This document shows, one piece after another, positions 7,929 through 13,178 of a stretch of DNA of 32,234 bases. The position numbers were made by a program, and so were the translations under genes. Below the pieces are notes generated by a model that ran no database searches, was not told the origin of the DNA, and saw only the letters and a list, made by a program, of their open reading frames with translations. Numbering within the stretch: position 1 is the first letter of the stretch; the number at the start of each line of letters is the position of its first letter. Source of the DNA: Deltaproteobacteria bacterium RBG_16_49_23 (lineage in GTDB: Bacteria > Desulfobacterota > BSN033 > UBA1163); contig MGQQ01000053.1 in NCBI GenBank assembly GCA_001798855.1, forward strand, positions 1 through 32,234, in the 5' to 3' direction.

Positions 7929-8010
7929 TTTTTTTATCCTCCTTTTGACGCTAAGGGAATCAACATTGACAAAAAATTGTCGAAATGATTACCCACATTA
8001 CCGTGTCGAT

Positions 8011-8068
8011 TGTAGCGCCCTCGTTTATCGGGGGCGCCCTTTTACGTTCCGGTAGACCGGAACGCTAC
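8011..8068. repeat. 58-base double-hairpin palindromic element
   Basis: The ends TGTAGCG (8011-8017) and CGCTACA (8062-8068) are inverted. Inside are GCGCCC-TCG with CGG-GGGCGC and, next to it, a perfect 9-base stem CGTTCCGGT/ACCGGAACG with an AG loop. This REP/MITE-like structure sits in the gap between the macro-domain gene and the MFS relic. No coding content is visible. Confidence 0.65.
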
Positions 8069-8177
8069 AAAAGAATAAACATTCATAACGACTGCCCCGG
8101 AAGAGGCATAAAATCTAAATTTATCCATATCAGAAAGAGTTGACTCCGTCAATAGAGGAGAGTTAAGGTCTTAAGCG

Positions 8178-8471
8178 ATGAAGTATATTTATTACGGCTG
8201 GGTCATTGTCGGAGTAGGGGTTCTCGTGAAGATGGCGGGGCTGGGGTTTGGCCGGTTTGCCTACCCCATGCTTCTTCCTACCATGAGGGATGGGGAGGCA
8301 GAGAAAAGAGCGACCCTCTATGGGTGGGTCACCTTGATCCACGGCATCGGGCAGTTTTTAGGAACCATTTTCGGAAGATATTTGAGGGATTTGACAGGCA
8401 CTTTTTAGTTGACCTTTCTGGTTTCCCTGATGGGATTTGTCGCCTGTGTCATCCTGACCGCCATCTCTCCC
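8178..8471 (+). pseudogene. MFS transporter relic with large internal deletion and amber stop
   Basis: The frame opens with an MFS-like first helix (YYGWVIVGVGVLVKMAGLG) and the FGRFAYPMLLPTM motif of YbfB/UhpC-type transporters. It then jumps after about 45 residues to a segment resembling the end of such a protein (GWVTLIHGIGQFLGT, YLRDLTGTF). A TAG at 8406-8408 interrupts it, yet the same frame continues hydrophobically (LTFLVSLMGFVACVILTAI) before entering a C-rich repeat near 8465. An intact MFS protein has about 400 residues, so roughly three quarters is missing. I read it as a decayed gene. Its weak AGGAGAG-like site upstream of 8178 may be left over from the intact gene. Confidence 0.7.
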
Positions 8472-8481
8472 TTCCCCCTTC

Positions 8482-8504
8482 CCCTCTCCCAACGGGGGAG
8501 AGGG
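8482..8504. terminator. C/G-rich hairpin after the MFS relic
   Basis: CCCTCTCCC (8482-8490) pairs perfectly with GGGAGAGGG (8496-8504), with further C-rich and G-rich flanks. It separates the relic from the convergent lipoprotein gene and belongs to the window's family of C/G-rich hairpins. Confidence 0.55.
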
Positions 8505-8525
8505 ATGGGGTGAGGGGAACTTCTT

Positions 8526-9137
8526 TCAGAGAGTTTCATAAAAAGATTTCTTCAGGAACTTGAAAGAGCTCACGAACTTATCGAAGATGTCAAAGGCAGC
8601 GGGGTCATAGGTTCCATCCAGAGACCTCCACTGGGTGATATAAAAACCCACTACCCGGTCACCCCGTTTGGCGAATATCACCTTTCCCCTGACCTTCTCT
8701 TTTTTCACCGGATCCTTTCCCTCTACCGTGACGGCAAGCCCCTCTCCGCCAACGACCTGCACCTTCTTCTTCTCCAGGATCTGAAAATGGAGGATCGCGT
8801 TAAAGAGAAATCGCTTGAAGAACTCCTTTTCTCGATCCTCAAACCGTGTGGAACATCCGAAGGGCTCCTCATCATAGGCAAAGGTGGTCAAGGATGGAAA
8901 ATCACCGGGATCGGGCCTCACAAAACCGAAATTGATATCGTTCTCTCCTGTTTCGACCCGAAGCAGCTTCCAATCCGGAGGAGGCGGCACAAATTCAAGT
9001 TCATCCTCCCAGATGACGGTCCCCTGTTGAGTCAAGCGATAAGGAACAGCCTTTTTCTCCGTCTCAAAAGTTGCGCATCCGGAAAGCCAAACAGTCGCGA
9101 AAAATAAAGAAAGAATCAGAAGACTTTTTCTCTTCAT
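8526..9137 (-). CDS. Hypothetical lipoprotein
   Basis: This 203-residue protein has a clear lipoprotein signal: MKRK, a hydrophobic stretch, then the lipobox LSGC with the acylated cysteine at residue 21. It would be anchored on the periplasmic side of a membrane. The rest has the look of a small alpha/beta domain (FVPPPPDWKLLRVETGEND, then EGLAVTVEGKDPVKKEKVRG), without any catalytic motif I recognise. Its ATG overlaps the stop of the upstream selenoprotein peroxiredoxin (ATGA, 4 bases), so the two are probably translated together and may act in the same envelope process. An AGGAAAACC precedes the start. Function unknown. Confidence 0.8.
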   Translation of the reverse strand: MKRKSLLILSLFFATVWLSGCATFETEKKAVPYRLTQQGTVIWEDELEFVPPPPDWKLLRVETGENDINFGFVRPDPGDFPSLTTFAYDEEPFGCSTRFEDREKEFFKRFLFNAILHFQILEKKKVQVVGGEGLAVTVEGKDPVKKEKVRGKVIFAKRGDRVVGFYITQWRSLDGTYDPAAFDIFDKFVSSFKFLKKSFYETL

Positions 9138-9685
9138 GGTTTTCCTCCTTCCTGGTTCAGTTTTTTAAGAAAGAGGAGAATATCCTTGAAAACCGGCGAA
9201 CCATCCCTGACATAACGAATGACGCCCTTCTTGTCGATGATAATCGTCCGTCTGCTGAAGATGGGCTTGCCCTCAGGTTGCGCATCCACACTGACGCCCA
9301 GAAAAGAGGTGACATTGGAAAGGAGAGGAAAGGTTAAATCTAAACCCTTTGCCCAATATTTTAGGGTGATGACATCGTCCCGACTGACGCCCAGAACCCG
9401 GGCGTTGAAGCGCTCATAGAGGTAAAGGTTCCTCTGATGGCCCTCCATCTCGCCCGTTCAGACGGGTGTATAGGCCGCCGGGAAAAAGGTGATGACCAGG
9501 TGATGTTTCCCGTAATACTCCTCAGCATAATTGATCACCCGATCGTGCGTGGAGGGAAGGGTAAAGTTAAGCAGCTCCCTTCCAACCAATTCCACTTTTT
9601 TCTTAGCTTCCACACTGGAGAGGAGAAGAAGGAATAACAGGAGAAAAATCAAAAAGAAACATTTGCAAAACCTCTTCCTCTTCAT
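9134..9685 (-). CDS. Exported peroxiredoxin with in-frame UGA at the catalytic position (probable selenoprotein)
   Basis: Read through the TGA at 9460-9458, this is a 183-residue AhpC/TSA-family peroxiredoxin. The peroxidatic signature PxxxTxxC appears as P-A-A-Y-T-P-V-(TGA), then TGEM, so the stop codon replaces exactly the catalytic cysteine, giving Sec76. Downstream the fold continues in the same frame: FNARVLGVSRDDV, FPLLSNVTSFLGV and SRRTIIIDKKGVIRYV, the last with the conserved active-site arginine region. Residues 1-28 are a strong signal peptide (MKRKRFCKC, then a long Leu/Phe run), so the protein should act in the periplasm. No resolving cysteine is left in the mature part, suggesting a one-Sec mechanism with an external thiol reductant. 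AAGGAGG precedes the ATG by 5 bases. Seleno-peroxiredoxins (PrxU) are known; a TGC/TGT-to-TGA sequencing error is the main alternative. Confidence 0.88.
9436..9460 (-). promoter_or_regulatory. UGA recoding site with candidate bacterial SECIS hairpin
   Basis: After the UGA (9460-9458) and 8 bases, GATGG (9449-9445) and CCATC (9440-9436) form a perfect 5-pair stem with loop AGGG (9444-9441). The loop starts about 16 bases after the UGA and begins with A-G, within the usual range for bacterial SECIS elements. The stem is short, and alternative pairing with a CGCCCG at 9404-9399 is possible. Confidence 0.5.
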
Positions 9686-9700
9686 AGAGACCTCCTTTCT

Positions 9701-9724
9701 GGTTTAATAATAGAATCTTAAACC
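9701..9724. promoter_or_regulatory. Candidate operator upstream of the peroxiredoxin
   Basis: GGTTTAA (9701-9707) and TTAAACC (9718-9724) are a perfect 7-base inverted repeat around an AT-rich centre containing AGAATC. It starts 16 bases upstream of the peroxiredoxin ATG. It shares only a little with the candidate PerR boxes at 11274 and 11801, so its regulator is uncertain. Confidence 0.3.
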
Positions 9725-9743
9725 ATTTTCCTTTTCTTTGCAA

Positions 9744-9788
9744 TTTCCCCCTTTCATTCCTGTCTATGACAGGGAGGAAAGGGGGAAA
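9744..9788 (-). terminator. Long hairpin after the diheme cytochrome gene
   Basis: Arms 9744-9764 and 9768-9788 pair over 21 bases with two mismatches around a 3-base loop. It begins just after the stop at 9792 on the minus strand and probably ends or attenuates that transcript before the peroxiredoxin gene. Confidence 0.65.
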
Positions 9789-9791
9789 GGA

Positions 9792-11192
9792 TTAAAGGGT
9801 TCTCATAAATTCCACCAAATCCTTCTTTTCCTGTTCGCTCAGTTTGAGTTCAAGGATCAGGTTGAAGAGCTCTACGGTATCCTCTAATGTCAGCAGCCTT
9901 CCATCGTGGAGATACGTTGGAGAATCTTTGATGCCCCGCAGTGGGAAGGTCTTGATGGGACCATCCGCGCCGGCCATCCGCCCATTGATCATCCGCGGTT
10001 TATAGAACCGCTCCACCTTGAGATCGTGCATTAAATTGTCTGTGTAGTAGGGAGCCGGGTGGCAGACACCACATTTTCCCTTCTCAAAGAAAACCGTCTG
10101 GCCTCGTAACTCGGCTTGTGTTGCCTTCTTTGGATTGACTTTGCCGAAGAGGTCAAGTTTCGGAGCAGGCGGGAAGTCAAGAAGCGCCTGAAATTCCGAC
10201 ATTGCGTGGACCTGGCTGCCCCGTTCAAGGATGTTCGCCCCCTTCTTTGTAGCGATTACAGGGTCGCCATCAAAATAAGCAGCTCTCTGTTCAAATTCGG
10301 TAAAATCTTCGATCGACTTTAATGCTCGTTGAGACCCGAAAAGGCGCTGGACATTCACTCCCCTTAATGGGGGTGTATCAATACGATGTCGAAACTCTTG
10401 GGGGCGGATGTCTCCAACAAGGTGGGTTGCAGCGTTTGTGTGGCCGTTGGCATGACAGTCGAAGCAGGTTACCCCACGGCTTGCCTTTTCGGAGCGACGG
10501 TCTTCGGTCTGGTTGAACTGCTGCTGTGGAAATGGTGTAACCAATAGTCTAACACCTTCAATCTGCTTGGGGTTAAGAATCCCATTGAAAAGCTCGTAGT
10601 AATTGTCAATCGTCACCAATTTCCCCTTAGAAACGTCACCCAGGTCGGGTCGCGTCGTTAGGTAAATAGGCGCTGGAAATTCGGGCAAAAAATGATCGGG
10701 AAGGTCAAAATCGAGGTCAAAGCGGGTAAGGTCACGGCCTTCTTGCTTTTTTATCTCTTCAATATGAAATTTTGGGAAAACCATTCCTCCTTCCGGATGA
10801 TTGGGATGAGGAAGGGGAAAGAATCCCGCAGGAAATAAGTTCTTCTCGCGGATTTCTTCGGGAGTCATAGAAGCCAGTGTCTGCCAGGTCATCCCCTTTG
10901 GAAGTTTAACCCGAACGCCTTCCTGGATCGGTTTTCCCCGGGACATTGTCACACCACTGGCCGGTCGATTGCTCAAATCATAACGCTCACTGAGCAGATC
11001 CATGTGGCGTTTCATCACTTCATGCTTTGCTGCCTTCATCCGAGCCATGATTGCCTCAAAACTCTCTTTGATCACTACAGGAGAGTAACTGGATTCTTTC
11101 TTTGAAGGAGATTGGGCAAAGGTTGAAATGGACATCATGACCGGTAACAGAACTGCAATTACCCATCCAAAGTATTTTATCATTTTTAACAT
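9792..11192 (-). CDS. Exported diheme c-type cytochrome, cytochrome-c-peroxidase/MauG-like
   Basis: This 466-residue protein has a signal peptide (about residues 1-26, ending STFAQ) and two c-type heme motifs: CFDCH near residue 246 and CGVCH near residue 378. The C-terminal part, with FPLRGIKDSPTYLHDGRLLTLEDTVELFNLIL, matches the di-heme cytochrome c peroxidase/MauG superfamily. The long N-terminal extension is unlike classical 320-residue peroxidases, so substrate and reaction are open; peroxide reduction in the periplasm is a reasonable inference from the neighbouring PerR-like regulator and peroxiredoxin. AAGGAGG lies 9-10 bases before the ATG. A motif shared with the perR upstream region lies about 80 bases upstream. 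Members of this type are often mislabelled cytochrome b6 in databases. Confidence 0.8.
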   Translation of the reverse strand: MLKMIKYFGWVIAVLLPVMMSISTFAQSPSKKESSYSPVVIKESFEAIMARMKAAKHEVMKRHMDLLSERYDLSNRPASGVTMSRGKPIQEGVRVKLPKGMTWQTLASMTPEEIREKNLFPAGFFPLPHPNHPEGGMVFPKFHIEEIKKQEGRDLTRFDLDFDLPDHFLPEFPAPIYLTTRPDLGDVSKGKLVTIDNYYELFNGILNPKQIEGVRLLVTPFPQQQFNQTEDRRSEKASRGVTCFDCHANGHTNAATHLVGDIRPQEFRHRIDTPPLRGVNVQRLFGSQRALKSIEDFTEFEQRAAYFDGDPVIATKKGANILERGSQVHAMSEFQALLDFPPAPKLDLFGKVNPKKATQAELRGQTVFFEKGKCGVCHPAPYYTDNLMHDLKVERFYKPRMINGRMAGADGPIKTFPLRGIKDSPTYLHDGRLLTLEDTVELFNLILELKLSEQEKKDLVEFMRTL

Positions 11193-11273
11193 TTTTACTT
11201 TCCTCCTTTTCGTTGAATTCTTGGCAGTTAGGGTTTAAAGACCCATTCACCTCCTCCCCTCATTTAAACTAAT

Positions 11274-11286
11274 CTGGAATGATTCC
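11274..11286. promoter_or_regulatory. Candidate PerR/Fur box upstream of the diheme cytochrome
   Basis: The core CTGGAATGATTCC is partly palindromic (GGAAT-GA-TTCC type) and shares 12 bases, CTGGAATGATTC, with the site at 11801-11812 upstream of the perR-like gene, there in the opposite orientation. The sharing between two genes of one stress block is the evidence; the half-sites resemble Fur/PerR boxes only loosely. Confidence 0.5.
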
Positions 11287-11367
11287 GAATAAAATTTCAA
11301 AAAAATTTATGGAAATGTAATTTCTATCCCTAACCTCTGTAAGGATTGGTCAAGTTGAACGAGGGAG

Positions 11368-11784
11368 TCACTTTCCTTTACACTCCTGACAATATCCGTG
11401 ATATTCAAGCCTGGTATCAGTAACCCAGAAGCGAGCTTTTTTTGCGACCTCCTTTAGGTCAATGGAGACAGGGACCTTGTAATCCATTATCTTATTACAT
11501 CCCTTACAGACCAAATTAATGTGCTCCATAATATTCCCCTCATAACGGTTTTCCATTTTATCGAACTCCAGCATTTTAATGATGCCATGCCTGGAAAATT
11601 CATTGAGGGTGGAATAAACCGTGGATAAACTCAGGCTCCCGACTTTTTTCATCGCCTCCCGATAAATTAGGCTTGCACCTGGATGAAGATGGGTTTTATC
11701 GACTAATACTTCAATGATTGCAAGTCGTTGCGGGGTAAGTTTTAACCCTTTCTCCCTCATCTTTTTAATAATCGATGTTTTCAT
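11368..11784 (-). CDS. perR: Fur-family regulator, PerR-like
   Basis: This 138-residue cytoplasmic repressor has the Fur winged helix (KLTPQRLAIIEVL, then SLSTVYSTLNEFSRHGII) followed by the metal-binding dimer domain. Two CxxC pairs, C93/C96 and C132/C135, make the structural zinc site. Relative to Bacillus subtilis PerR the sensing-site aspartate is kept (D101, matching D104), which favours PerR over Fur. H34 and H88 match the oxidisable histidines, but the position of the H93 ligand is N90. It is upstream of the diheme peroxidase-like gene and the peroxiredoxin on the same strand. A candidate box lies 17 bases before its own ATG, suggesting autoregulation. The Shine-Dalgarno is weak. Confidence 0.85.
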   Translation of the reverse strand: MKTSIIKKMREKGLKLTPQRLAIIEVLVDKTHLHPGASLIYREAMKKVGSLSLSTVYSTLNEFSRHGIIKMLEFDKMENRYEGNIMEHINLVCKGCNKIMDYKVPVSIDLKEVAKKARFWVTDTRLEYHGYCQECKGK

Positions 11785-11800
11785 CTCAATTTGTAATTAA

Positions 11801-11812
11801 GAATCATTCCAG
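11801..11812. promoter_or_regulatory. Candidate PerR/Fur box upstream of perR
   Basis: GAATCATTCCAG is the reverse complement of the core at 11274-11285. It ends 17 bases from the perR-like start codon, where a repressor would block transcription or initiation. Confidence 0.5.
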
Positions 11813-11924
11813 TTTACAAAGAACATATCCTGTCCGACATCGCTTGTCAAGTTATTGTCTCGCTCAAAAATGGCTTGCCAAAATAGATTGAGGAGTGTTA
11901 AATAATTGTTAAGGAAATAGAAAG

Positions 11925-12332
11925 ATGATTGCTTACGATCTCATCTGTTCCAATGGTCATCTTTTTGAGTGCTGGTTTAAAGACAGCTCCTGCTTTGAGG
12001 AGCAGCAGTCTGCCGGCATCATCAACTGCCCCGTCTGCGATGATACCCAGGTAGTGAAAACCTTTTCTCCATTCATGATCAAGAAGAGTGACGGAGAAAG
12101 AAAAAAGGGGGAGGAGGCCGCTCAGCAGGCCTTGCAGTTAATCCATGAGTATGTGGACAAACACTTCGAAGATGTGGGAGCCAAATTTGCCGAGGAGGCG
12201 CTCAAAATCCACCATGGAGAAGAAGAAAAGAGAAACATCCGGGGAACGGCCACGATAGAGGAGGAAGTGATCCTGAAGGAAGAAGGGGTCCAGTTCTTAA
12301 AGGTCCCGATCGTCAAACGGCTTCTGAACTGA
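11925..12332 (+). CDS. DUF1178 family protein
   Basis: This 135-residue protein matches the uncharacterised DUF1178 family. It opens with MIAYDLICSNGHLFECWFKD and has a probable zinc ribbon made of C9 and the CPVC pair near residues 36-39, then TFSPFMIKK. The middle is a charged helix (EEAAQQALQLIHEYVDKH), and the end FLKVPIVKRLLN is also typical of the family. There is no signal peptide, so it should be cytoplasmic. An AAGGAAAT precedes the ATG by about 9 bases. It stands alone, divergent from perR and convergent with the LytTR regulator. Function unknown; the zinc ribbon hints at nucleic-acid or protein binding. Confidence 0.85.
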   Translation: MIAYDLICSNGHLFECWFKDSSCFEEQQSAGIINCPVCDDTQVVKTFSPFMIKKSDGERKKGEEAAQQALQLIHEYVDKHFEDVGAKFAEEALKIHHGEEEKRNIRGTATIEEEVILKEEGVQFLKVPIVKRLLN

Positions 12333-12413
12333 GGCTTTGAATGCTGAGATCTCTCGGTCCCTTTTTTGAACTCATCATAAAGCCGTCATCAAAAGTATTC
12401 GGTTTCGGGCCGG

Positions 12414-13178
12414 CTACATTTGTTTGAACAGATGAAGGTAGTTGCGGCTTACGGTGAGAAGCTCCGGTCTCTCTTTAAGTTTCAATATTCCTCGTCCTGT
12501 GAGTGAACGACTCACTTTGTCTATCTTGGAAACATTGACGATCGTTCCCCGGTGTATCTGCCAGAATTGACCGGGATCGAGTTCCTGGGCCAATTCTTTA
12601 ATGCTCTTTTTAATAAGGGACTCCCCTTCTTTGGTTATGACCAGAGTGTATTTATCTTCGGCCTTGAAGTAGTCTGCCTCCTCCACGGGTATGAGACGGA
12701 TACTATCTTTACTTTGCGTTTTAATCCAATGCAAAAAATCAGACCCTCCTCTGCCCGGCAACTTGGAAAGGACCTGCTCTACAACCTCAGCCAATCTTGC
12801 AGGTGGTTCAATGGAAGAATTCAATTGGTTCTTGAGGCGCTGAATGGTCTGAATCAGTCTGTTTTTTGACACAGGTTTGAGGAGATAATCAACAGCCTCC
12901 TTCTCAAAGGCTTCTACTGCATACTGATCGAAGGCGGTTACAAATACGATACGACAGAGCCCTGCTATTTTTTTTGCAACCTCCATACCTGAAAGACCAG
13001 GCATTCTGATATCAAGGAAGGCGATCTGCGGTCGTTTTGATTCCACTAATTCAAGGGCTTCTTTACCATTTTTGGCCTCGCCGCAAATCATGAGCTCCGG
13101 CCAAATCTCTGACAAAATGGATTTGAGGTATGTCCTCAACTCCTTTTCATCATCTGCGATAATGGCTTTGAAGATCAT
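12414..13178 (-). CDS. LytTR-family response regulator
   Basis: This 254-residue regulator has a receiver domain (about residues 1-120; acidic pair D9/D10, phosphoacceptor D56 in FLDIRMPG, K102 region in YLLKPVS) and a C-terminal LytTR DNA-binding domain (about 150-250; YFKAEDKYTLV, FWQIHRGTIVNVSKI, LTVSRNYL). LytTR proteins bind direct repeats and activate nearby genes. Its start lies 29 bases inside the upstream kinase gene with GAGGTG 7 bases before the ATG, so the two proteins are a coupled kinase/regulator pair. Being the last genes of the oxidoreductase/ABC/barrel block, they probably control it. Confidence 0.92.
   Translation of the reverse strand: MIFKAIIADDEKELRTYLKSILSEIWPELMICGEAKNGKEALELVESKRPQIAFLDIRMPGLSGMEVAKKIAGLCRIVFVTAFDQYAVEAFEKEAVDYLLKPVSKNRLIQTIQRLKNQLNSSIEPPARLAEVVEQVLSKLPGRGGSDFLHWIKTQSKDSIRLIPVEEADYFKAEDKYTLVITKEGESLIKKSIKELAQELDPGQFWQIHRGTIVNVSKIDKVSRSLTGRGILKLKERPELLTVSRNYLHLFKQM

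Follow-up and report, generated by a model that had tools for sequence, protein, structure and literature searches.

In the stretch of DNA analyzed here (the window: 32,234 nucleotides of a contig of Deltaproteobacteria bacterium RBG_16_49_23), a gene that appears to be split in two most likely makes a single exported, selenium-containing, peroxide-removing enzyme. The best explanation of the locus, which on the evidence of sequence we hold with considerable confidence, is a genuine peroxiredoxin with selenocysteine (Sec) inserted at an in-frame TGA, which would be exported, carry a single selenol and have a lipoprotein partner. Annotation programs that treat every TGA as a stop would break such a gene in two, and the exported enzyme would be lost; the gene is present in 19 of the 395 genomes sampled from the phylum.

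Frame, export signal and predicted fold

The gene occupies positions 9134..9685 on the minus strand (ATG at 9685..9683, stop codon TGA at 9136..9134, 183 residues), with a ribosome-binding-like stretch, AAAGGAGG, directly 5' of the ATG. It comprises two open reading frames of the same frame, 9685..9458 (75 aa) and 9448..9134 (104 aa), and the sole interruption of the peroxiredoxin frame from 9685 to 9134 is a TGA at 9460..9458. This candidate Sec codon (residue 76) is at the catalytic position, the C of PxxxTxxC (local sequence FPAAYTPV[U]TGEME). When read through, the protein matches the whole Pfam AhpC-TSA model (PF00578; residues 34-159 against model positions 1-124 of 124, E 6.8e-20) with 71.7 bits over a cut-off of 26; in separate Pfam searches of the two halves, the first had no match and the second matched the C-terminal part of the same model. 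The same frame and the full-length match thus bear out, in the window, the original prediction of one peroxiredoxin encoded by two segments across a single TGA at the catalytic Cys.

A signal peptide is predicted at the N-terminus (9605..9685, minus strand; residues 1 to ~27, with a cleavage site, judged by eye, between ...SSVEA and KKK). Its hydrophobicity over 12 residues is 3.61, with 5 K/R before this segment, and residues 3-22 form a helix in the AlphaFold2 model. When hydrophobicity is judged with a simple rule, 35 of the 36 distinct sequences of the clade (defined below) begin with a signal-peptide-like segment; for the exception, L074, a short start was chosen. An exported selenoprotein had been proposed as unusual: the export signal is supported by these data, and the novelty as such is not, a periplasmic [NiFeSe] hydrogenase being tabled among selenoproteins (PMC1914089). 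An approximate lipobox pattern can be seen in 5 of the 36 distinct peroxiredoxin sequences, and some members, to judge from this pattern, may be lipoproteins themselves.

The window protein has only two Cys residues, C7 and C9, both within the n-region of its signal, so that after cleavage it would carry a single selenol but no thiol, with an estimated mass of about 17 kDa. None of the 49 clade loci has a Cys after the TGA (the L075 sequence ends 21 residues after it), and in 35 of 36 sequences the segment from the hydrophobic stretch to U is also free of Cys, the exception (L075) having a likely lipobox Cys there. The predicted absence of a resolving cysteine, a feature of 1-Cys-type peroxiredoxins such as AhpE, thus extends to the clade. 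The AlphaFold2 model (mean pLDDT 91.4) has a peroxiredoxin fold by Foldseek, similar to Bcp and AhpE (1-Cys) structures. P69 and T73 are nearly invariant in the clade, as are other active-site columns; one row, L083, deviates from the T-P-x-U part of the motif, with FGEGU in place of FTPxU.

The lipoprotein partner and other neighbors

The gene for a 203-aa lipoprotein (8526..9137, minus strand; lipobox LSGC, C21) overlaps the peroxiredoxin stop in the window by 4 nt, as had been noted originally, and a 4-nt start/stop overlap occurs in 24 of 35 distinct loci. The lipoprotein is encoded directly downstream in all 35 distinct loci with downstream DNA (the 36th, L075, ends before) and is the one conserved neighbor of the Sec-peroxiredoxin. 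Across the 395-genome sample, a lipoprotein profile matched 20 genomes (E 1e-6), of which 19 are the genomes with a Sec-peroxiredoxin. The twentieth (G167; L107:1-586, contig C358) has a lipoprotein fragment in a truncated frame, from about residue 75-78 on, which closely follows a stretch found upstream of the peroxiredoxin in L077, L081 and L082. This collinearity indicates that about 1 kb, comprising the peroxiredoxin gene and the beginning of the lipoprotein gene, is missing between them by either deletion or misassembly.

Searches of Pfam and NCBIfam returned no match for the window lipoprotein and nothing beyond chance for 35 members. A PsbP sequence match was obtained for 1 of the 35 (E 0.18), which does not place the family with PsbP by sequence, and the best solved chain by sequence had an E-value of 0.93. 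Using the structural model (pLDDT 84.6), Foldseek ranked PsbP best (E 2.2e-6, TM 0.45 by query and 0.57 by target), followed by LpqN (3.3e-4) and DcrB (2.6e-3), with EagT6/SciW and Tsi3 of type VI secretion also matching. The predicted fold is thus PsbP-like, resembling PsbP/CyanoP, LpqN and DcrB, at identities of 10-15% for PsbP, LpqN and DcrB and with no sequence-family match over cut-off. This fold (in PsbP, LpqN, DcrB and type VI secretion chaperones) is often used for docking.

The only invariant Cys of the lipoprotein is the lipid-bearing one of the lipobox, and we therefore rejected the lipoprotein as the source of the resolving thiol. The residue after this Cys is Ala; by the +2 rule of E. 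coli, it would send the protein to the outer membrane. The start/stop overlap could couple translation of the lipoprotein to Sec insertion, which is a guess, since the lipoprotein gene also has its own good ribosome-binding sequence (AAGGAGG).

We propose that SelB and tRNA-Sec, together with the RNA element immediately 3' of the UGA, let ribosomes read this codon as Sec, as the sequence evidence strongly suggests (see below), and that the product would be exported via its signal peptide to give a mature enzyme with one selenol and no thiol. The selenol would reduce H2O2 or organic peroxides in the cell envelope and become a selenenic acid. With no internal resolving Cys, this acid would receive its electrons from elsewhere, for example from a small thiol or an exported thioredoxin-like protein. 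The lipoprotein would most likely tether or position the enzyme at the membrane or dock its reductant. A thiol-free peroxiredoxin in an oxidizing compartment raises the question of what reduces it, and the co-inherited lipoprotein family offers a concrete lead. More tentatively, and in our view less likely than not, the pair might form a two-part envelope peroxide defense, in which a dedicated PsbP-fold lipoprotein both anchors a Cys-free, selenium-only peroxiredoxin to the outer membrane and chooses its electron donor, so that the enzyme escapes trapping by the periplasmic disulfide-forming machinery.

Alternatively, Sec may be inserted in a protein that acts mainly as a sensor or relay, passing oxidation to a partner rather than clearing peroxide. 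Such a role would agree with the lack of a resolving Cys in any member, with a fixed partner of non-enzyme-like fold and with the other exported peroxiredoxin-like genes in the same genome (see below). We nevertheless consider it unlikely in view of the near invariance of Pro, Thr and the other active-site columns, and because 1-Cys peroxiredoxins such as AhpE work as peroxidases. Even less probable is a link to the lipoprotein due to operon inertia only: although the genomes searched with both profiles represent one phylum and the wider scan gave close relatives only, adjacency is kept down to 45% sequence identity while other neighbors change, and the sole lipoprotein-only genome among the 395 (G167) is the one with a truncated lipoprotein frame and the intervening stretch missing.

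Apart from the lipoprotein partner of the proposed peroxide-removing enzyme, the genes next to it in the window vary among loci. An exported di-heme (two CxxCH) MauG/cytochrome c peroxidase-like protein (9792..11192, minus strand), whose NCBIfam MauG-type matches are far below cut-off, is encoded in 3 of the 36 distinct loci, the window's included. For a Fur/PerR-family regulator (11368..11784, minus strand; Pfam FUR 5.4e-26), the 21 distinct fetched loci that extend 2.3 kb or more upstream yielded a homologue in one case (34% identity), the other loci being too short to tell. Being not conserved, neither was retained as a functional partner. A "PerR-type stress block" had been proposed for this region; PerR (NF052545) is indeed the best model for the regulator, but at 100.2 bits versus a cut-off of 180, and the lack of conservation of the Fur-family gene nearby leaves the case for such a block weak. 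Other recurring neighbors are a macro-domain gene (13 of 36 loci) and a DUF1178 gene (9 of 36), the remaining large neighbor clusters consisting of frames of the pair itself or of mechanical frames overlapping it. Palindromes at 9738-9798, between the di-heme and peroxiredoxin genes, and at 8461-8522, after the lipoprotein gene, could be terminators or repeat elements. The peroxiredoxin and lipoprotein are 78-83% identical to those of the same-genus relatives L050, L024 and L026, whereas some flanking genes are 92-97% identical, which suggests recombination or faster evolution of the pair.

Related loci are found elsewhere in the same genome. A second Sec-peroxiredoxin and lipoprotein pair on contig C96 (L106:51-1868), broken by runs of N, comes after a gene for an exported TlpA-like protein whose UxxC motif (WATWUPIC) contains an in-frame TGA; this protein is likely another exported selenoprotein and is a candidate reductant. 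Among the loci compared, a close match to it lies only beside this second copy, and we rejected it as a conserved neighbor or reductant of the clade. Another exported, apparently Cys-free Sec-peroxiredoxin subfamily (DFTSGU / DFTPGU) is represented by L117:1081-1428 on contig C118 of this genome and by L120:690-1154, with no lipoprotein match in the fetched stretch. The genome also encodes an exported Cys-type peroxiredoxin paralogue (L118:901-1374, contig C149; VPAAWTPICSDQWP), and related Cys forms occur near the Sec gene in L058 and L059.

Reading of the UGA codon

The clade set comprised 49 fetched loci, of which 13 were set aside as having 120 nt around the TGA identical to another, leaving 36 distinct ones, including the window's own (L020). 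The aligned codon is TGA in all 49 loci and a Cys codon in none. Cys occupies the aligned residue in more distant homologues (e.g. L035, L036 and L040), and TGA is found there in other subfamilies (L037, L042 and L044). The alternation of Cys and Sec at this position, which the original prediction had called for checking by alignment, is thus seen between the clade and its more distant homologues, within which the in-frame UGA corresponds to a redox-active Cys, a mark of bacterial selenoproteins. With no Cys form turning up in the clade, selenium seems to be important to what this enzyme does.

The search for relatives covered 59 genomes, counting the one that the window comes from. Of the 16 other genomes in the same genus or family, 14 have a clear relative at 55-83% identity, its matched frame containing one TGA in each case and in one of the 14 a TAA as well; in this comparison G003 gave no peroxiredoxin match and G014 a distant Cys-type match only. 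A pattern scan of GTDB contigs, which reaches close relatives only, yielded 26 loci. The 19 positive genomes of the phylum sample (own genome included) gave 20 matches with E 1e-30 or better, every one of them with the TGA. In a tree of 57 rows, 35 clade rows are on one side of a branch with 99/99 support and the 22 other homologues apart, with a program warning of long branches. Judging from these sequence comparisons, the Sec-peroxiredoxin appears to be a real selenoprotein and to form a distinct clade, exported and Cys-free, of the known broad kind Prx (TxxU).

Upstream of the hairpin region the median dN/dS is 0.23 (357 of 561 pairs usable), and downstream of it 0.18 (318 of 561); the 204 and 243 pairs left out were saturated or zero. 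These low values confirm that the frame is open and conserved on both sides of the TGA, as had been anticipated.

The 60 nt directly 3' of the UGA (9398..9457, minus strand) fold into a SECIS-like RNA hairpin with an MFE of -31.7 kcal/mol (z -6.15), a stability reached by 0 of 200 shuffles. With codon-preserving shuffles, 0 of 200 were as stable in 30 of 34 sequences (mean z -4.2 over the 34), the four exceptions being L077 (10/200), L080 (2/200), L081 (8/200) and L082 (5/200). When the gene is scanned in five-codon steps, the 60-nt stretch that is most stable on average begins directly after the UGA. Synonymous conservation is observed in the same region: over codons +1 to +20 (18 testable), the mean codon identity is 0.71 versus 0.39 expected, compared with 0.35-0.51 versus 0.31-0.41 expected for other blocks of the gene (p 1.3e-5 by a rank test that ignores relatedness). 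Both lines of evidence place a stem-loop directly 3' of the UGA, as in SECIS elements.

The details of pairing are less uniform. At one stem position both bases are changed (G-C to A-U) in 8 of 34 distinct sequences, via Arg AGG to AGA and Tyr TAC to TAT. Of the cells in the tested hairpin, 86.2% pair, compared with 34-52% when the structure is slid; double changes are seen in 14 cells against a shuffled mean of 5.8, and none of 500 shuffles reached that number. On the other hand, its covariation score (0.055) is not above that of the slid controls (0.056 at -3 and 0.061 at +3), and the count of doubly changed pairs is unremarkable, 336 of 500 shuffles reaching it. A second version of the hairpin scored lower against shuffles, and RNAalifold picked a different, weak consensus structure (-6.75 kcal/mol). 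The apical loop of the MFE hairpin has a G in 2 of 34 sequences and none in 32, whereas the bacterial SECIS consensus has an apical-loop G (PMC1088965); a few known genes have SECIS elements that depart from the model (PMC9312934). An Rfam scan of 8000-12500 returned sub-threshold miRNA models on palindromes only. Overall, there is good support for a conserved RNA element immediately following the UGA, and less for any one exact structure. By itself, the window would fit a pseudogene with a nonsense mutation or a base-call error with a wrong letter, the gene being interrupted by a stop. The recurrence of the same TGA in 36 distinct sequences, the purifying selection on both sides and the synonymous conservation directly after it leave such an explanation hardly any probability.

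The original prediction of a Sec codon had been made dependent on a genome that encodes selB and tRNA-Sec, and both were identified in the draft genome. Scores over cut-off were obtained for tRNA-Sec (82.9 bits, anticodon TCA), SelB (353.9 bits) and SelA (623.1 bits). Of the genes named for this search, SelD was not found in the draft, its best match (86 bits, cut-off 125) being what we take to be a ThiL-like protein. Since the draft is 93% complete, an assembly gap is the likely reason. SelD exceeded its cut-off in 19 of 26 genomes searched, among them 8 of 9 same-genus relatives; each of these eight has a single TGA in the gene, as Sec-containing SelD does. Of the 395 phylum genomes, 353 have SelB over cut-off, including all 19 with the Sec-peroxiredoxin gene, and SelB is so common that its presence lends weak support to the Sec reading. 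A genome-wide reassignment of TGA (e.g. to Trp or Gly) in place of Sec at this codon has a negligible chance, the lowest of the alternatives; no observation favored it, and against it stand the facts that TGA also terminates the peroxiredoxin gene in 32 of 35 distinct loci and the lipoprotein gene in the window, that tRNA-Sec, SelA and SelB are present, and that more distant homologues have Cys at this position.

Comparison with known selenoproteins and peroxiredoxins

Selenoprotein Prx (TxxU) is tabled as a known prokaryotic selenoprotein family (PMC13188914, PMC9312934), and Prx selenoproteins occur in Geobacter metallireducens and Syntrophus aciditrophicus (PMC1794560); the proteins of these two species may belong to the clade described here. 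The Prx-like thiol:disulfide oxidoreductase selenoproteins, several of which are found in Deltaproteobacteria (PMC13188914, PMC1794560), share PF00578 with this clade, but have their Sec in UxxC rather than TxxU. No periplasmic or lipoprotein-linked selenoperoxiredoxin was found in the literature searched (open papers). Sec-peroxiredoxins with TxxU are thus already known, and a description of the Cys-free exported clade with a lipoprotein was not found in this open literature.

AhpE from Mycobacterium tuberculosis (1xxu, 4x0x) is among the closest solved sequences and folds (26-27% identity) and has, by PDB title, a single peroxidatic residue. It differs in having Cys where this clade has Sec; moreover, AhpE is cytoplasmic, and to our knowledge it has no such lipoprotein. 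PrxU from Eubacterium acidaminophilum (NCBIfam NF040737), invoked originally as the precedent, is likewise a PF00578-type peroxiredoxin whose Sec lies in TxxU, which upholds the precedent with regard to the kind of protein. The window protein itself is not a PrxU, scoring 26.7 bits against NF040737 (cut-off 270), and PrxU is cytoplasmic. In contrast to PrxU, members of the clade described here would be exported, with no Cys in the mature protein and with a fixed lipoprotein partner.
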